Source: Mucilaginibacter sp. 14171R-50 (GTDB taxonomy: Bacteria > Bacteroidota > Bacteroidia > Sphingobacteriales > Sphingobacteriaceae). Taken from it: a DNA stretch of 64,000 nucleotides. Position 1 is the first letter of the stretch. Each line of letters starts with the position of its first letter. Positions 29,970-35,058 of the stretch are shown piece after piece. Under the pieces are notes generated by a model. That model searched no databases, was not told the origin of the DNA, and was given only the letters and a program-made list of their open reading frames with translations. The stretch is taken from contig NZ_CP048115.1 of the NCBI RefSeq assembly GCF_010093045.1, forward strand, positions 3,162,001 to 3,226,000, given 5' to 3'. Both the position numbers and the translations under genes were made by a program.

Positions 29970-30136
29970 TTTTGCAGTTTTATTGCCCGCGGGACTGTTT
30001 AGGGAAGCTTATGCAGGCAGTCATGATCGCAGAACTAATCTTGATGCCGGCGTTATCTTATGTTTACAGCATCAAACGATGCAAACTAAGCCACTGCTCG
30101 CTGATGCAAGGCGCAAAACTAACGGGAATAGCCGCG

Positions 30137-30574
30137 TTAGCGGTTTATACGCATATCAACAACGTTCCAGCTCTTTTTATCGGCCCAGTCGCCCCCCTTA
30201 TATGATAGGCTTACCCGCCAAGTGGTTTTAACTATTTTTCCGGCGCTGTCTGCCGCGTCAACATACGATGATATATTGTAGGTGTTGCGGGCGGTATCAA
30301 TATCAGATTCGAACCTGCTTTTTGGGAAGCTGGCCGTACCCGGCTGACGCAGTTTATCGTTAATAAATACCTTGGCTATAGCAAACGCTTCTTTAGCATT
30401 TGGTTTCCGGTTTACATGTACGCGCCGGTTTTGCAGCACACGTAGCATTACCACAAAAAACAGGAGCGCAAACAGGAAGGTGAATATTGTAGCGATCCTG
30501 ATGCGGGGGTGATGTCGCCAGTGGGTATTCTTCTTGTCTTCGTCGCTAAGGTTTTTCCATTCAGAATATTTCAT
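30137..30574 (-). CDS. Single-pass membrane protein, unknown
   Basis: A 145-residue protein: a charged N-terminal cytoplasmic segment (EWKNLSDEDKKNTHWRHHPR), one membrane helix (about 26-46, TIFTFLFALLFFVVML) and a periplasmic domain of about 95 residues (KEAFAIAKVFINDKLRQPGT, then beta-rich). Family not recognised. It stands alone between two terminators. Confidence 0.7.
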   Translation of the reverse strand: MKYSEWKNLSDEDKKNTHWRHHPRIRIATIFTFLFALLFFVVMLRVLQNRRVHVNRKPNAKEAFAIAKVFINDKLRQPGTASFPKSRFESDIDTARNTYNISSYVDAADSAGKIVKTTWRVSLSYKGGDWADKKSWNVVDMRINR

Positions 30575-30638
30575 GTGTACGCTTTTCCATCAATAAACAA
30601 ACTTCCACTCGAATGTTTTCACGTAAATAAAAGGCAAA

Positions 30639-30671
30639 AAAAAACGCCCCTGAAAACCAGGGGCGTTTTTT
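30639..30671. terminator. Terminator of the small lipoprotein gene 30686-30895
   Basis: Perfect 14-bp arms AAAAAACGCCCCTG and complement with a 5-base loop. Confidence 0.88.
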
Positions 30672-30685
30672 ACCAAAAAAAGTTA

Positions 30686-30895
30686 TTACATTTTTTTAGC
30701 AGCAGTATCAGTTGCAGCAGAATCCATTTTAGTTGAATCTGTCATAGTAGAAGTTGAATCCATTTTAGCCGAATCCATTTTAGCTGAGTCCATAGCAGCT
30801 GAATCAGCAGCAGATGATGAACCAGAACCTTTACAAGCAGCAGTTGAAACAGCGATAGCTAAAGCTAAAAAGCCAATTTTGAATGCATTTTTCAT
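30686..30895 (-). CDS. Small Asp/Ser/Met-rich lipoprotein (69 aa), paralogue 1
   Basis: Signal peptide MKNAFKIGFLALAIAVSTAA with lipobox ending at Cys21 (STAACKGSGS), then a low-complexity tail of DSAKM/DSTKM units. Nearly identical in its first 27 residues to the gene at 31059-31268, so they are tandem duplicates. Probably an abundant small outer- or inner-membrane lipoprotein; function unknown. Confidence 0.78.
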   Translation of the reverse strand: MKNAFKIGFLALAIAVSTAACKGSGSSSAADSAAMDSAKMDSAKMDSTSTMTDSTKMDSAATDTAAKKM

Positions 30896-30954
30896 TGTTT
30901 GTTTTTTTTAAGTGATTTAATAGTTTTTCGTTAGTTAATACCCAAAACAAAAAA

Positions 30955-30990
30955 AGGTAACCCACTTTTTAAAAAAAATGCAGGTTACCT
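30955..30990 (-). terminator. Terminator of paralogue 2
   Basis: GGTTACCT and AGGTAACC arms; on the minus strand the hairpin ends in a T-run. The word AAAAAGGTAACCCACT recurs at 31331-31346 downstream of the decayed copy, so the terminator was duplicated with the gene. Confidence 0.65.
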
Positions 30991-31058
30991 CTTTAAAAAA
31001 TTAAAAAACTTAAAAAATTAACAATGTAATTTTTTAGTATTTAACGGGTTACGTTAAA

Positions 31059-31268
31059 TTATTTTTTAGTTGAATCAGCTTTAGCTGAATCAGCTGGAGC
31101 AGCAGTAGAGTCAACTTTAACAGTAGAATCAACTTTAACAGTAGAGTCAACTTTAACAGTAGTATCAGCAGCAGAATCAGCTGAAGATGCAGAACCAGAA
31201 CCTTTACAAGCAGCAGCTGAAACAGCGATAGCTAAAGCTAAAAATGCGATTTTGAATGAATTTTTCAT
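31059..31268 (-). CDS. Small Asp/Ser/Thr-rich lipoprotein (69 aa), paralogue 2
   Basis: Signal peptide and lipobox like paralogue 1 (VSAAACKGSGSA), then three copies of the six-residue unit TVKVDS followed by TAAPADSAKADSTKK. The repeat at DNA level is 18 bases long, so copy number could change by slippage. Function unknown. Confidence 0.78.
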   Translation of the reverse strand: MKNSFKIAFLALAIAVSAAACKGSGSASSADSAADTTVKVDSTVKVDSTVKVDSTAAPADSAKADSTKK

Positions 31269-31344
31269 TTTTTGTTGTTTGATGATTTGTAAGTTATTTT
31301 ATTCTTATCGGTTGTTAATACGCCGATCTGAAAAAGGTAACCCA

Positions 31345-31460
31345 CTAATTTAAATTATTTTTTACGCTGTCGTTTTTTGTTGAATCAACAGGCGCGGCGG
31401 TCGAATCAACTTTTACAGTACTGTCTACCCCGTTTGTAGCTTTTTGACTTTCGCAAGGTA
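31345..31460 (-). pseudogene. Decayed C-terminal fragment of a fourth lipoprotein paralogue
   Basis: On the minus strand, out of frame with the end of the next gene, the translation contains VDSTVKVDSTAAPVDSTK and ends in TAG. That matches the tail of paralogue 2 almost exactly, and the terminator word follows it. No signal peptide or start codon remains, so this is a remnant or a frameshifted extension of 31461-31715. Confidence 0.65.
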
Positions 31461-31715
31461 TTAATGGTCAAATTCTTTTCGCTTCTTACTTTGTTTTACG
31501 CTATCCGTACCGCCCGATCCGGATTTATCCATCCCGCTGTCGATTGCAGATGGCGCGCCGTTAGCTTCGGCGCCGCCGGCATCAGGAGCATTCTTGTTTA
31601 CCGGGGTATCTACCCGCGTACTATCCGGAACGTGCGTAGAATTGTTTCCGCTGCACGCGGCAAATGTTGTAGCGATAAAAAACGCTAAAAAACTTGTCTT
31701 TATTAAATTTTTCAT
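31461..31715 (-). CDS. Small lipoprotein (84 aa), paralogue 3
   Basis: Signal peptide MKNLIKTSFLAFFIATTFAA with lipobox Cys21 (FAACSGNNS), then a Gly/Ala/Asp/Ser-rich tail ending KKRKEFDH. It shares the N-terminal plan of paralogues 1 and 2 but is more diverged. The frame directly after its stop encodes the paralogue-like fragment, so a recent frameshift is possible. It is divergent from the sigma factor gene. Confidence 0.72.
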   Translation of the reverse strand: MKNLIKTSFLAFFIATTFAACSGNNSTHVPDSTRVDTPVNKNAPDAGGAEANGAPSAIDSGMDKSGSGGTDSVKQSKKRKEFDH

Positions 31716-31883
31716 ACTAAGCTGTTTATGTTATGCCATACCTAACTCAAATTTAATGCCGCTCTGTGCTAATAAATATTTACCGATATTGCGGCAAGAT
31801 GCGGAATACAGCATGCTATTAACATAAACCGAAAAAATAAAAAATATAATTGGGTTACAATTGAGTATAAAAAGTATTAAGTA

Positions 31884-32450
31884 GTGAATAATCAGTTAAA
31901 TGTGGAAGCACCATCGGATAGGGAAGTGATCATTGGGATACTTAATAACTCTGATAGTGTTTTAAAAAAATTATACCTGGCTTATTTTCCAATGGTTTTA
32001 CAACTCGTTATCAGTAACAATGGCGACGAGGATGAAGCTAAGGATATTTACCAGGAAGCGATAATAGTTCTTTATAATAAGGTTAAGCGGGGCGATTTTG
32101 AGCTGAGCAGCAAATTAAAAACGTACATATATTCGATATGCAGGCGTTTATGGTTAAAGCGGCTTAAGCAACTGAACAGGTACGGCGGCGATATAAAAGA
32201 TTTTCAGGAGTACCTGCCGGTTGAGGATGAGGTGGAGATGCACGAGGAACGCGATATGCAGCTTAACAAAATGGGCGACGCGCTAAAGTTACTCGGCGAA
32301 CCCTGCAAAACTATTATGGAGGATTTTTACATGCATAACAGATCGATGCAGGATATCTGCGAACGGTTTGGCTATACCAATGCTGATAACGCGAAGACAC
32401 AGAAGTACAAGTGCTTGCAAAGGCTGAAGAAATTATTTTTTCAGCAGTAA
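31884..32450 (+). CDS. ECF-type RNA polymerase sigma factor
   Basis: A 188-residue sigma-70 family member with only regions 2 and 4. Region 2 includes DEDEAKDIYQEAIIVLYNKV and LKTYIYSICRRLWLK; region 4 is an HTH around MQDICERFGYTNADNAK. The start is a GTG at 31884. The next gene, 20 bases later, encodes a membrane protein with an anti-sigma-like N-terminus, the usual ECF operon arrangement. Confidence 0.9.
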   Translation: MNNQLNVEAPSDREVIIGILNNSDSVLKKLYLAYFPMVLQLVISNNGDEDEAKDIYQEAIIVLYNKVKRGDFELSSKLKTYIYSICRRLWLKRLKQLNRYGGDIKDFQEYLPVEDEVEMHEERDMQLNKMGDALKLLGEPCKTIMEDFYMHNRSMQDICERFGYTNADNAKTQKYKCLQRLKKLFFQQ

Positions 32451-32470
32451 TATAAGGAAGGGGCGACGAA

Positions 32471-33571
32471 ATGAAAGATAACCAACTTTTAGAAATGATA
32501 GAGAGCTACCTGAGCGGCGAAATGCCCGAGGGTGAACGCGCTCAGTTTGAGGCATTGCGCAAAAAGGATGCGACCATTGATGCAAAAATAACAGAGTACA
32601 AACATTTTACAGGCCTGTTAAAACAATATAACGACCGCTTGAGCATGCAGGCCCGTTTAGACGAGATACACGAGGAAATTGATGTGCATACCCTTAAAGA
32701 CGACCTGATGGCGCATCCATCGTGGGTGGTACAAATGTGGCGTAACCATCACTCAAAAATATCAGTTGCAGCGTCGGTAGCTATATTTGCGGTTTTGCTT
32801 ATACTTTACGCCACCGGCGACCTGAGCAACAAGGATCCCCGTTTCCAGCAATTGAGCAGGGAGGTTAAACTGGTTAAAGACCAGCAGCGCCAGTTGGGGC
32901 AGCAGCAGGATAATATTATTAAAAGCACTAAAACAGGTCCCAGCATTTCTGCACGGTTCAGAGGTACAGGTTTCGCCCTTACCGGTAACGGGTACATTGT
33001 TACCAATTATCATGTGATAAACGGTGGCGACAGCGTGTATGTTCAAAATGCTGCCGGCGAATCGTACCACACCAAAGTGGTTTATACCGATCCGGCGTAT
33101 GATGTAGCCATTTTACAGATCAACGATACGTTGTTCAAAAATATCGGCCCGGTGCCGTATACCTTTAAAAAATCGAAAAGCGATTTAGGTGAAGTAGTAT
33201 ATACATTGGGTTACCCCGGCGATGACATCAAGTTTGGCCCCGGCGCGCTAACCGCCAGCACCGGTTTCCGCGGCGATACCACCGAATATGAAGTATTTAT
33301 ACCCGTTAACCCCGGCAACAGCGGTGGCCCCTTACTTGATGATAAGGGCAATATCATTGGTGTGATAAACGGTAAGCAAACCCAAACAACCGGAGCGGCT
33401 TTCGCGGTAAAATCAAATTACCTGCTAAAGGCCATTCAAAACATCCCTGCCGATTCGTTAAGCAAATCGCTTACACTTAACACCAAAAACACCCTGGCCG
33501 GCCTTAGCCGTACCCAGCAAATAAAAAAGCTGCGTAACTATGTGTTTATGGTGAAGGTTTACAACCAGTAA
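32471..33571 (+). CDS. Membrane-anchored trypsin-like serine protease with anti-sigma-like N-terminus
   Basis: A 366-residue fusion. Residues 1-85 are cytoplasmic and helical, starting like Bacteroidota anti-sigma proteins (LLEMIESYLSGEMPEGERAQFEAL); residues 97-114 form one membrane helix; a coiled-coil-like linker (125-150) leads to an S1C-type protease domain with His181 (TNYHVI), Asp211 (YDVAI) and Ser284 (GNSGGP). No PDZ domain. A purine-rich AAGGAAGGGG precedes the ATG, unusual for this genome. It probably controls the sigma factor and senses periplasmic stress; this is inference. Confidence 0.88.
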   Translation: MKDNQLLEMIESYLSGEMPEGERAQFEALRKKDATIDAKITEYKHFTGLLKQYNDRLSMQARLDEIHEEIDVHTLKDDLMAHPSWVVQMWRNHHSKISVAASVAIFAVLLILYATGDLSNKDPRFQQLSREVKLVKDQQRQLGQQQDNIIKSTKTGPSISARFRGTGFALTGNGYIVTNYHVINGGDSVYVQNAAGESYHTKVVYTDPAYDVAILQINDTLFKNIGPVPYTFKKSKSDLGEVVYTLGYPGDDIKFGPGALTASTGFRGDTTEYEVFIPVNPGNSGGPLLDDKGNIIGVINGKQTQTTGAAFAVKSNYLLKAIQNIPADSLSKSLTLNTKNTLAGLSRTQQIKKLRNYVFMVKVYNQ

Positions 33572-33641
33572 AAAATCAACAATTTATATAGCGAAGAGGG
33601 ATGCGGGAAACTGCCTCCCTTTTTTTGGCTCACTTCATCAA

Positions 33642-33749
33642 CGCGTCATTGCGAGGAGCGATAGCGACAAAGCAATCTCTTTGAGCCATTCGTTGATGTA
33701 AGGTGTTGAATTGTCCTAAAGAGATTGCTTCGTACCTCGCAATGACGCG
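33642..33749. repeat. Dispersed hairpin repeat, copy A (TGC type)
   Basis: Arms begin CGCGTCATTGCGAGG and end CCTCGCAATGACGCG. The left arm has a longer middle (AGCGATAGCGACAA) than the right. The central 45 bases resemble those of copy C. It lies between the convergent protease and nuoD genes. Confidence 0.9.
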
Positions 33750-33804
33750 AGGACAGGTAGTTGTCAACCTACCCACTAATCACAAACCTCTTATCTCTAA
33801 AATC

Positions 33805-35058
33805 CTACCTATCCACCTCGCCCAATACAAAATCCAGTGAGCCGATAATTGCCACCAGGTCGGCTATCATGATGTTTTTGCCTATTTCGGGCAATACAGA
33901 TAGGTTGTTGAAGCTTGGGCCACGTACTTTAGCGCGGAATGGAATTTCGGAACGTTCGTTATTATGCACAAAGTAAAAGCCCAGCTCGCCTTTGGCGCCT
34001 TCGCAGCGGGCGTAATAATCCTGCACTTTTGGAGTTAGTTTGCGGGGCATTTTAGCGCGGGGGTCAAAATCGGGGGTACGTTTTAATTCGTTTTGCAAAC
34101 GGTTAAGGCACTGCTCAACAATATGCAGCGATTGTTGAATCTCGTCAACGCGCACTTTGTACCTGTCCCAGCAATCGCCGGTTGTGCCCATTTCGCCTTT
34201 ACCTACCGGGATGTCAAATTCCAGTTCGGGGTAAACCGAGTAATTATCAATACGGCGAAGATCGTACTTAAGCCCCGAGCCACGCAGCACAGGGCCGCTG
34301 CAGCCGCAGTTAATGGCCACATCCATAGGCAACACCCCAACATTGGCAGTGCGGCTTATAAATATCTGGTTATCGGTTAAAAGCTGGTTAAGCTCAACCA
34401 TTTTTGGTTTAAAGTAATCTACAAACTCGCGGCAGCGCTCTTCAAACCCGACGGGTAAATCGTAAAATAAACCACCTACCCAAATATAGTTATACAACAT
34501 GCGCGAGCCCGAGGCCCATTCCAGCATGCCCATAATATGTTCGCGGTCGCGGAAGCACCACAGGAAAGGGGTGAAAGCCCCAATATCAATACCGTAGGTA
34601 CCAATGGCGATCAGGTGCGATGCAATGCGGTTAAGCTCGCATACCAGTACGCGGATGTATTCTATCCGTTTTGGAATATCCTGATCAATGCCCAGCATTT
34701 TCTCCACGCCCATTACCCAGGCATGGCTGTTGTTCATTGATGCAAGGTAGTCCAGCCTGTCGGTAAAAGGGATGGTTTGCTGATAGGTGAGCGATTCGGC
34801 ATGTTTTTCGAAACAACGGTGCAGGTACCCTACATGGGGGATCACTTCCTTCACTATCTCGCCGTCGGTTATCAGCTCCAGCCGCAAAACCCCGTGTGTT
34901 GACGGATGCTGCGGCCCCATGTTAAGCACCATATCCTCTACGGCGGCGTCCGCTATCTTTTTGTGATAGGCTTCTAAAGCACGGTTATATTTTGATGTCT
35001 CTGTGTTCAATGTTTTATCCGTGTCGTCATTGCGAGGTACGAAGCAATCTCTTCCCAT
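33805..35058 (-). CDS. nuoD: NADH-quinone oxidoreductase subunit D
   Basis: 49-kDa-type subunit of the peripheral arm of complex I, lining the quinone site. It contains [29 protein letters not shown] and a C-terminal [12 protein letters not shown]. The ATG at 35058 lies inside a dispersed repeat and would add the repeat-derived residues [12 protein letters not shown]; a TTG at 35010 would give a more ordinary N-terminus (401 residues). It follows nuoC in an operon with pdxH; nuoE and later genes are not downstream. Confidence 0.95.

Follow-up and report, generated by a model that had tools for sequence, protein, structure and literature searches.

A probable anti-sigma factor fused to an HtrA-like protease, with tiny lipoprotein genes nearby: a candidate envelope-signalling circuit in the Sphingobacteriaceae

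Introduction

Can an anti-sigma factor carry its own site-1 protease? This question is raised by a two-gene locus of Mucilaginibacter sp. 14171R-50, located in a stretch of 64,000 nucleotides (contig NZ_CP048115.1, positions 3,162,001 to 3,226,000; the whole stretch is termed the window here). The operon sits in a 4.54-Mb chromosome. A gene for an extracytoplasmic function (ECF) sigma factor is directly followed by a gene for a membrane-anchored fusion protein that ends in an HtrA-like serine protease. The original prediction, made from the sequence of the window, had described the fusion. New here is a promoter-like element upstream of the sigma gene and of divergent tiny lipoprotein genes; stalk, element and lipoproteins were all absent from the original prediction.

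We propose, with somewhat better than even confidence, that the locus encodes a self-contained three-part envelope-signalling circuit composed of an ECF sigma factor, a protease-bearing anti-sigma factor and tiny lipoproteins. At rest, the cytoplasmic helices of the fusion protein would hold the sigma factor at the inner membrane. An envelope signal would act on the periplasmic HtrA-like protease, which would form an oligomer on a coiled-coil stalk. The protease would then make a site-1 cut close to the membrane, in its own chain or in a neighbouring one, and the RseP-type protease of the genome (PF02163, 189.9 bits) could make a second cut that would free the sigma factor. Once free, the sigma factor would use GGGTTAC-N15-GTATTAA promoters to transcribe both its own operon and the genes of the third part, one to several tiny lipoproteins that have disordered tails. 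Within this scheme, sigma binding, oligomer state, proteolytic release, element recognition and lipoprotein feedback are steps that we infer from sequence comparison.

Results and discussion

Conservation and linkage of the two genes

Architecture, conservation, gene linkage and the element with the genes behind it are well supported at the sequence level. Both open reading frames (ORFs) were found where the original prediction had placed them (Table 1), on the same strand and separated by 20 bases, and they probably form one operon. The sigma protein scores above the curated ECF model TIGR02937 (72.4 bits, cut-off 42.9) and above Pfam Sigma70_r2 (38.6 bits, cut-off 24). For its region 4, no Pfam match at E ≤ 1 was obtained, yet the TIGR02937 alignment reaches residue 183.

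The fusion is present in about 234 of 251 genomes of the family including the window's own, a reading based on E-values (about 1e-79 or better) with match coverage seen for the best matches only; the remaining 17 have no match or a weak or partial one. The 31 named relatives found all belong to Mucilaginibacter (58–84% identity). A search of the class (396 genomes) yielded full-length or near-full-length matches under 10 family labels, and outside the family at least 49 of 378 genomes have a match starting at or before residue 94. The sampled loci include 20 from other genera of the family, 20 from other families and 19 with a match to the protease domain only, plus L124.

The original prediction had proposed a search for ECF neighbours of the same architecture. 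Of the 101 full-length loci (L004-L104), 100 have a sigma gene as their immediate upstream neighbour, in the same orientation. The exception, L095, stops at a contig end and was left out of the sigma counts; L058, whose sigma gene is truncated by a contig end, was left out of the upstream counts. The sigma profile finds an ORF in 99 of the 101 loci. At the protease-only loci, an ECF gene or the N-terminal module was found in none of 19. The 100 full loci collapse to 86 distinct proteins and 85 distinct upstream regions, and some genomes contributed both to L034-L064 and to L004-L033.

The distance between the two genes ranges from -17 to +84 bases (median 12), with an overlap in 12 of 86 distinct loci. 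Efficient coupled translation had been suggested from a purine-rich spacer. The spacer is indeed purine-rich in the window and may serve such coupling there; its length varies among the homologues. A GTG start is found in all 30 complete sigma genes among the 31 loci L034-L064.

The N-terminal module

A profile built from residues 1-93 of 27 members matches 101 of 197 class genomes at E ≤ 0.01, in many cases in proteins without a protease. At 39 of 40 chosen non-protease loci (L182-L221, a subset of a longer profile list), an ECF ORF lies upstream on the same strand; the exception, L191, has 176 bases to the contig edge. At these 39 loci, the ECF gene stops between 110 bases inside and 126 bases before the assumed module start. 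The non-protease proteins comprise 89-957 residues. Some consist of the module alone, others continue with a hydrophobic stretch and an outer part that differs in length. Many of the sigma factors beside them share an AK-QKYKC-like region-4 signature with the sigma factor of the window. A lack of conservation of residues 1-95 near ECF genes had been named beforehand as an argument against the predicted link; the opposite was observed.

Because the non-protease carriers have an ECF gene upstream, the N-terminus is probably an anti-sigma module. The linkage is strong evidence for a functional tie between module and ECF sigma factor, as distinct from direct binding or its sign. Thus, one polypeptide does, as predicted, combine a sigma-linked N-terminus with a membrane anchor and an HtrA-like protease whose triad is intact, while the anti-sigma role assigned to the N-terminus is probable from linkage. 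No observation favours an accidental fusion of two unrelated neighbouring genes, which deserves next to no credence: the spread under 10 family labels, the upstream sigma gene at 100 of 101 loci and the module-ECF linkage at 39 of 40 refute it.

AlphaFold2 models of the whole fusion and of the protease alone were calculated from an alignment of 32 Mucilaginibacter-type sequences only. In the whole-fusion model, the N-terminal helices are usable and the protease part is poor. In this shallow-alignment model, the module forms helices at residues 3-15, 20-32, 34-69, 72-81 and 83-93. Block means of the predicted local distance difference test (pLDDT) amount to 75-82 up to residue 50 and to 66 and 51 afterwards.

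Alternatively, the module might recruit or activate the sigma factor at the membrane and exert no inhibition. Co-occurrence reveals linkage and not the sign of regulation, and three members that lack helices 1 and 2 of the module (L085, L086, L090) still keep the sigma gene. However, membrane-bound helical partners encoded behind ECF genes are mostly inhibitors, and the start of the module resembles zf-HC2 anti-sigma N-termini, though with 14.0 bits it stays short of the cut-off of 22.2 (7 of 32 members match at E ≤ 0.1). Recruitment or activation therefore appears improbable to us, and the module is treated in the following as a probable inhibitor.

Two further observations concern the module. 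The genome of the window contains a second sigma gene with the QKYKC region-4 signature (L219, G000:C1:2690788-2691475). It is followed by a gene for an 89-aa protein that comprises the N-terminal module alone (profile E 2e-7; pairwise E 0.003). Similar pairs occur in two genomes of the same genus (L220, L221). At L182-L201, the module heads proteins of 329-957 aa, and an ECF gene lies upstream in 19 of 20 cases; two of these proteins were scanned and contain no Pfam domain over the cut-off.

Protease, membrane helix and stalk

Fusion residues 165-298 match Pfam Trypsin_2 (85.5 bits, cut-off 27.6). The triad His181, Asp211 and Ser284 was predicted at exactly the right positions and is invariant in 86 of 86 distinct homologues. 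The protease part stays far under the cut-off of every NCBIfam model matched, and the curated HtrA model TIGR02037 is not passed (95.2 bits, cut-off 416.2). No Pfam match to a PDZ domain was found in the fusion, and residue 330 leaves only 36 residues behind it. A protease profile matches DegP-like PDB chains with an E-value of 7.3e-22. Structure comparison returned HtrA-type proteases with best Z values of 8.4 (59 residues, 2.2 Å) and 8.5 (117 residues, 5.4 Å); it covers mostly residues 166-225 and 156-230 and hardly touches the N-terminal module.

A hydrophobic stretch at about residues 97-115 follows 'WRNHHSK' and corresponds to an AlphaFold2 helix at 99-114, in an overall poor model. Behind it, residues 125, 128, 132, 135 and 142 are hydrophobic in 94-99% of the sequences that have a residue there, with 3-4 spacing, and 73 of 86 members are hydrophobic at all of these positions. 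Residue 149 is hydrophobic in all 42 of the 86 sequences that have it, and at position 139, Gln or Thr is found in 68 of 86. Over the entire protein, the best heptad window begins at residue 122. The heptad score was matched in 1 of 20000 permutations of columns 123-150, a segment picked after inspection. We read this stalk as a coiled coil that would make the protease oligomeric. HtrA proteases are oligomeric, and a polar core layer in a coiled coil is compatible with a trimer.

The main rival to the proposed circuit concerns the role of the protease. The protease could be the output, an on-demand enzyme for envelope quality control. Substrate load or conformation would then loosen the anti-sigma module, and no self-cut would occur. 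Titration of CpxP is thought to work much like such an uncut release. The protease gene follows the sigma gene directly and probably shares an operon with it, the triad is invariant, the stalk could relay a conformational change, and residues 119-124 contain no conserved cut-site motif. On the other hand, membrane anti-sigma factors with a single helix are often freed by proteolysis, and an RseP homologue exists in the genome. All in all, we regard release without cleavage as unlikely, and cleavage by the fused protease, in its own or a neighbouring chain, is retained in the proposed circuit.

At the inner start of the membrane helix, residues 99-102 (32765-32776) read VAAS in 69 of 86 and IAAS in 9 of 86 members. 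They could mark an intramembrane cleavage site. At the C-terminus, the segment YVFMVKVYN (residues 357-365) is conserved and is also reached by the matches of many protease-only homologues. We take it to resemble the first strand of HtrA proteins. Residues 358-364 form a strand in the protease-alone model, whose predicted template modelling score (pTM) is 0.58. The segment may be the first HtrA strand shifted to the C-terminus, as a circular permutation would place it.

A promoter-like element upstream of the sigma gene

The sequence GGGTTAC-N15/16-GTATTAA, with up to two changes in the second box, precedes the sigma gene in 84 of 85 distinct loci, a count that uses the first copy where two exist and hence shows presence, not position. 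Spacing is 15 bases in 74 loci and 16 in 10. The one locus that lacks GGGTTAC, L098, has AGGTTAC instead. In the whole 4.5-Mb genome of the window, the exact element has three sites, all less than 1 kb from the sigma gene, while the backwards control has 0. Across 101 genomes of the family, 235 exact sites were counted compared to 27 for the backwards control, and 97 genomes have at least one site. The four site-free genomes (G007, G010, G033, G049) contain only weak fusion matches (E ~1e-13); since three of them belong to one genus, they represent fewer than four independent losses. Outside the family, genomes were counted as fusion-bearing when their class-search match starts at or before residue 94. 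An exact site is present in 16 of 32 fusion-bearing and in 13 of 205 other genomes (p = 6e-9, a value that overstates independence because the compared genomes are related), and in 11 of the 16 the site lies at the fusion locus.

A sister sigma factor, L213, whose region 4 is closely similar, is paired with a partner other than a protease; GGGTTAC-N16-GTATAAA is present upstream of this sigma gene, in front of a different small gene. Taken together, the co-occurrence of element and fusion, the distant lipoprotein sites described below and the L213 sister indicate that the likely reader of the element is the sigma factor itself. It appears to switch on little beyond its own operon and a few tiny lipoproteins.

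The element might instead be the site of another regulator, and the sigma factor might have other targets. The tie between element and sigma factor is drawn from sequence, which leaves room for this view. Yet the element tracks the presence of the fusion gene, its two-box layout with 15-16-base spacing is typical of ECF promoters, and the L213 sister has nearly the same element beside another partner. A different regulator is thus very improbable, and the element is best regarded as a candidate promoter of the sigma factor.

In the window, the GTG start of the sigma gene is 3 bases past GTATTAA, and in at least 50 of 84 loci the assumed start is 2 or 3 bases past it. Therefore, the sigma messenger may be leaderless, or the real start may be further in. 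A second forward copy of the element was observed 124-131 bases before the sigma gene in the Mucilaginibacter loci L051-L056, L059 and L064, and 71 and 209 bases off in L083 and L084. Six genomes of genus g21 have a further site before a gene for a secreted-looking protein of ~205 aa that matches DUF4294 (one piece checked). The 20 stretches fetched around such sites are a chosen subset of the element sites of the family. In two of them, L241 and L244, neither a tiny lipoprotein nor a DUF4294 protein is encoded behind the element. No small lipoprotein gene lies behind either of the two one-mismatch sites in the genome of the window (L245, L246).

Tiny lipoproteins behind divergent elements

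Two further exact elements of the window point away from the operon, each towards a gene for a tiny lipoprotein (Table 1). The two lipoproteins have the signal peptide and the start of the mature sequence in common, but not the tail. A divergent element (GTATTAA or GTATAAA) with a tiny lipoprotein gene is present in 52 of 69 loci (L034-L104 minus L058 and L095). A relaxed scan of 16 of the remaining 17 added 12, which gives 64 of 69. No such gene behind a divergent element was found in L040, where the contig ends after 450 bases, or in L078, L079, L097 and L104. In the genome of L078 (G016), an exact element lies 1.9 Mb from the fusion gene and 45 bases before a lipoprotein match.

All 80 ORFs behind divergent elements have a lipobox-like cysteine and encode 60-84 aa (median 68). 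In their tails, T, A, K, S and D account for 81% of the residues, and aromatic residues for 0 of 3797. This set excludes a 100-aa ORF with N letters (L084) and counts one ORF of L049 twice (79 distinct). When a filter blind to the element was applied, such a gene turned up in 62 of 69 loci, no more than 1.5 kb upstream of the sigma gene. The filter found none in three sets of controls, made up of 19 whole protease-only loci, 40 window tiles and 40 whole sister loci; many of the sister stretches hold less than 1.5 kb upstream of their sigma gene.

The same pairing occurs far from the operon. In 9 of 9 fetched genomes of genus g4, one site is located ~0.6 kb ahead of the fusion gene and a second on another contig; G045, also of genus g4, has its distant site on the same contig, 543 kb off. 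The distant g4 sites have a tiny lipoprotein gene 44-48 bases on, and G019 is alike. G022 has a distant lipoprotein site in addition to a local pair.

A Pfam scan of the three lipoprotein ORFs of the window returned nothing over the cut-off. Their best NCBIfam match is NF050142, the PG1828 family, with 20.2, 26.8 and 24.3 bits, all under the cut-off of 50. Across the class, NF050142 matches 161 of 247 genomes at E ≤ 1e-4, only 10 of them over the cut-off and many in longer frames. Because these matches are mostly below the cut-off and often in longer frames, they look like lipoprotein signal peptides generally and are not specific here.

What the tiny lipoproteins might do can be addressed tentatively. 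A lipoprotein could itself be the signal: as a sentinel, it would offer its disordered tail to the sigma factor's own protease as a ligand or a substrate. We consider this doubtful. If it were true, a failure to export lipoproteins to the outer membrane or an altered envelope spacing would let the tail reach the inner-membrane protease, and the sigma factor freed in this way would raise the levels of both sentinel and protease. Such a closed circuit would gauge how lipoproteins are trafficked or how the envelope is shaped, and it would have almost no targets besides.

Within the window, a terminator-like hairpin (30671-30639) lies behind the gene for lipoprotein 2. Past the 84-aa lipoprotein-like ORF, sequence resembling another lipoprotein tail was noted, and the stretch 31345-31715 (minus strand) probably represents a third copy that has decayed. 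In L035, three tandem copies are intact.

Table 1. Features of the operon and of the adjacent lipoprotein genes (window coordinates)
Feature	Position	Strand	Remarks
ECF sigma factor gene	31884..32450	+	188 aa, GTG start
Fusion gene (anti-sigma-like, transmembrane, stalk and HtrA-like protease parts)	32471..33571	+	366 aa, ATG start
Sigma-linked helical module, cytoplasmic, residues 1-95	32471..32755	+	Profile (residues 1-93) and AlphaFold2 helices
Single membrane helix, residues 97-115	32759..32815	+	Hydrophobic stretch, opens with VAAS at 99-102
Predicted heptad coiled-coil stalk, residues 122-150	32834..32920	+	Polar core layer at 139
HtrA-like serine protease, residues 156-366	32936..33568	+	His181, Asp211, Ser284; no PDZ match
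Promoter-like element GGGTTAC-N15-GTATTAA before the sigma gene	31852..31880	+	Exact match
Divergent element, lipoprotein 1	31315..31343	-	Exact match
Divergent element, lipoprotein 2	30935..30963	-	Exact match
Tiny lipoprotein 1, 69 aa (MKNSFKIAFLALAIAVSAAAC...)	31059..31268	-	Behind exact divergent element
Tiny lipoprotein 2, 69 aa (MKNAFKIGFLALAIAVSTAAC...)	30686..30895	-	Behind exact divergent element
84-aa lipoprotein-like ORF	31461..31715	-	No exact element; probably degraded third copy

Points that weigh against the circuit

Several observations speak against the proposed circuit. Apart from the relatedness of the compared genomes, the missing motif at residues 119-124 and the three members with a shortened module (all mentioned above), these are the following. 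Among the best 60 of 137 matches of the module profile to PDB sequences (E ≤ 10), no anti-sigma factor was found, only chance-like matches (PPAR and others). The structural models are weak, with a pTM of 0.24 for the whole fusion and of 0.58 for the protease alone. At two mismatches, the element has 50 matches in the genome compared to 25 for the control; therefore, no weaker targets can be assigned. Of the 16 fusion-bearing genomes outside the family that have an exact site, 5 have it elsewhere than at the fusion locus. There, the backwards control matches in 32 of 237 genomes, 3 of them fusion-bearing, and 13 of 205 is thus at chance level. Finally, L078, L079, L097 and L104 have no such lipoprotein gene nearby.

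Comparison with known systems

The closest parallel is the SigmaE-RseA-DegS-RseP system of E. coli, which likewise combines an ECF sigma factor, a membrane-bound sigma-linked partner, a periplasmic HtrA-like protease and an RseP homologue. The sigmaE regulon is large; here, there are three exact promoter-like sites in the genome of the window. Furthermore, in contrast to SigmaE-RseA-DegS, protease and anti-sigma module are one polypeptide, which has a coiled-coil stalk and no PDZ match. Since RseA and DegS are separate proteins and a PDZ domain was not found, the locus is not a member of the sigmaE-RseA-DegS pathway, despite the similar logic. A passage on DegS is contained in PMC8103513.

Like the class I anti-sigma domain proteins described in passages of PMC7406223, the fusion has a predicted N-terminal helical module encoded directly behind an ECF gene and, like most of them, a membrane helix. 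Class I domains are bundles of three helices plus a fourth that bind sigma regions 2 and 4; a comparable fold is a possibility for the helices predicted here. Unlike them, it lacks the Hx3Cx2C zinc motif, and its outer part is an HtrA-like protease. These passages name no protease fusion among the class I proteins, and according to them, class I anti-sigma domains go with only 6% of the ECFs of Bacteroidetes (PMC7406223). In a broad sense, the fusion may belong to this group.

The best NCBIfam E-value for the fusion is that of the MarP family serine protease NF033740 (97.4 bits, far under the cut-off of 250). MarP spans the membrane with several helices and is not known to be linked to a sigma gene. 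RsgI anti-sigma factors are not known to contain a trypsin-like protease domain of their own. They resemble the protein proposed here as membrane anti-sigma factors with stepwise release and an RseP step, which in our case is predicted. For Clostridium thermocellum, PMC12203970 describes RsgI factors as membrane-bound and released by stepwise proteolysis, with RseP at the membrane step. The nearest NCBIfam family to the tiny lipoproteins, below its cut-off, is the PG1828 family lipoprotein (NF050142). According to passages of two papers, PG1828 is triacylated (PMC10126205) and PG1827 is an ECF gene, SigH (PMC4800418). From the locus numbers, PG1828 would adjoin this ECF gene.

Among the listed matches of a search in the open-licence literature (titles and abstract openings), no account of the fusion or of the element was found; a prior mention is possible. 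The element motif is absent from the main text of PMC9723704.

Neighbouring sequences

Directly behind the operon, two nested inverted repeats (20 nt at 90%, 16 nt at 94%) are located at 33642-33749. They are perhaps an interspersed repeat or a terminator. The following ORF (33805-35058) presumably corresponds to nuoD. Its listed N-terminal stretch may be translated repeat, and the true start is probably further in. An Rfam scan of 30000-34000 gave no match, and a sigma-70-type promoter scan found no more sites than in shuffled sequences.

Conclusions

The locus is a compact case for the control of Bacteroidota ECF sigma factors, in which sigma factor, sensor-anchor, protease, promoter-like elements and putative targets are found within ~3 kb, and it is present in most genomes of one family. 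Whether an anti-sigma factor and its site-1 protease can be one protein is cleanly testable here, as is the role of the tiny lipoproteins. In addition, the N-terminal profile indicates that sigma-linked proteins form a larger group whose outer parts differ.

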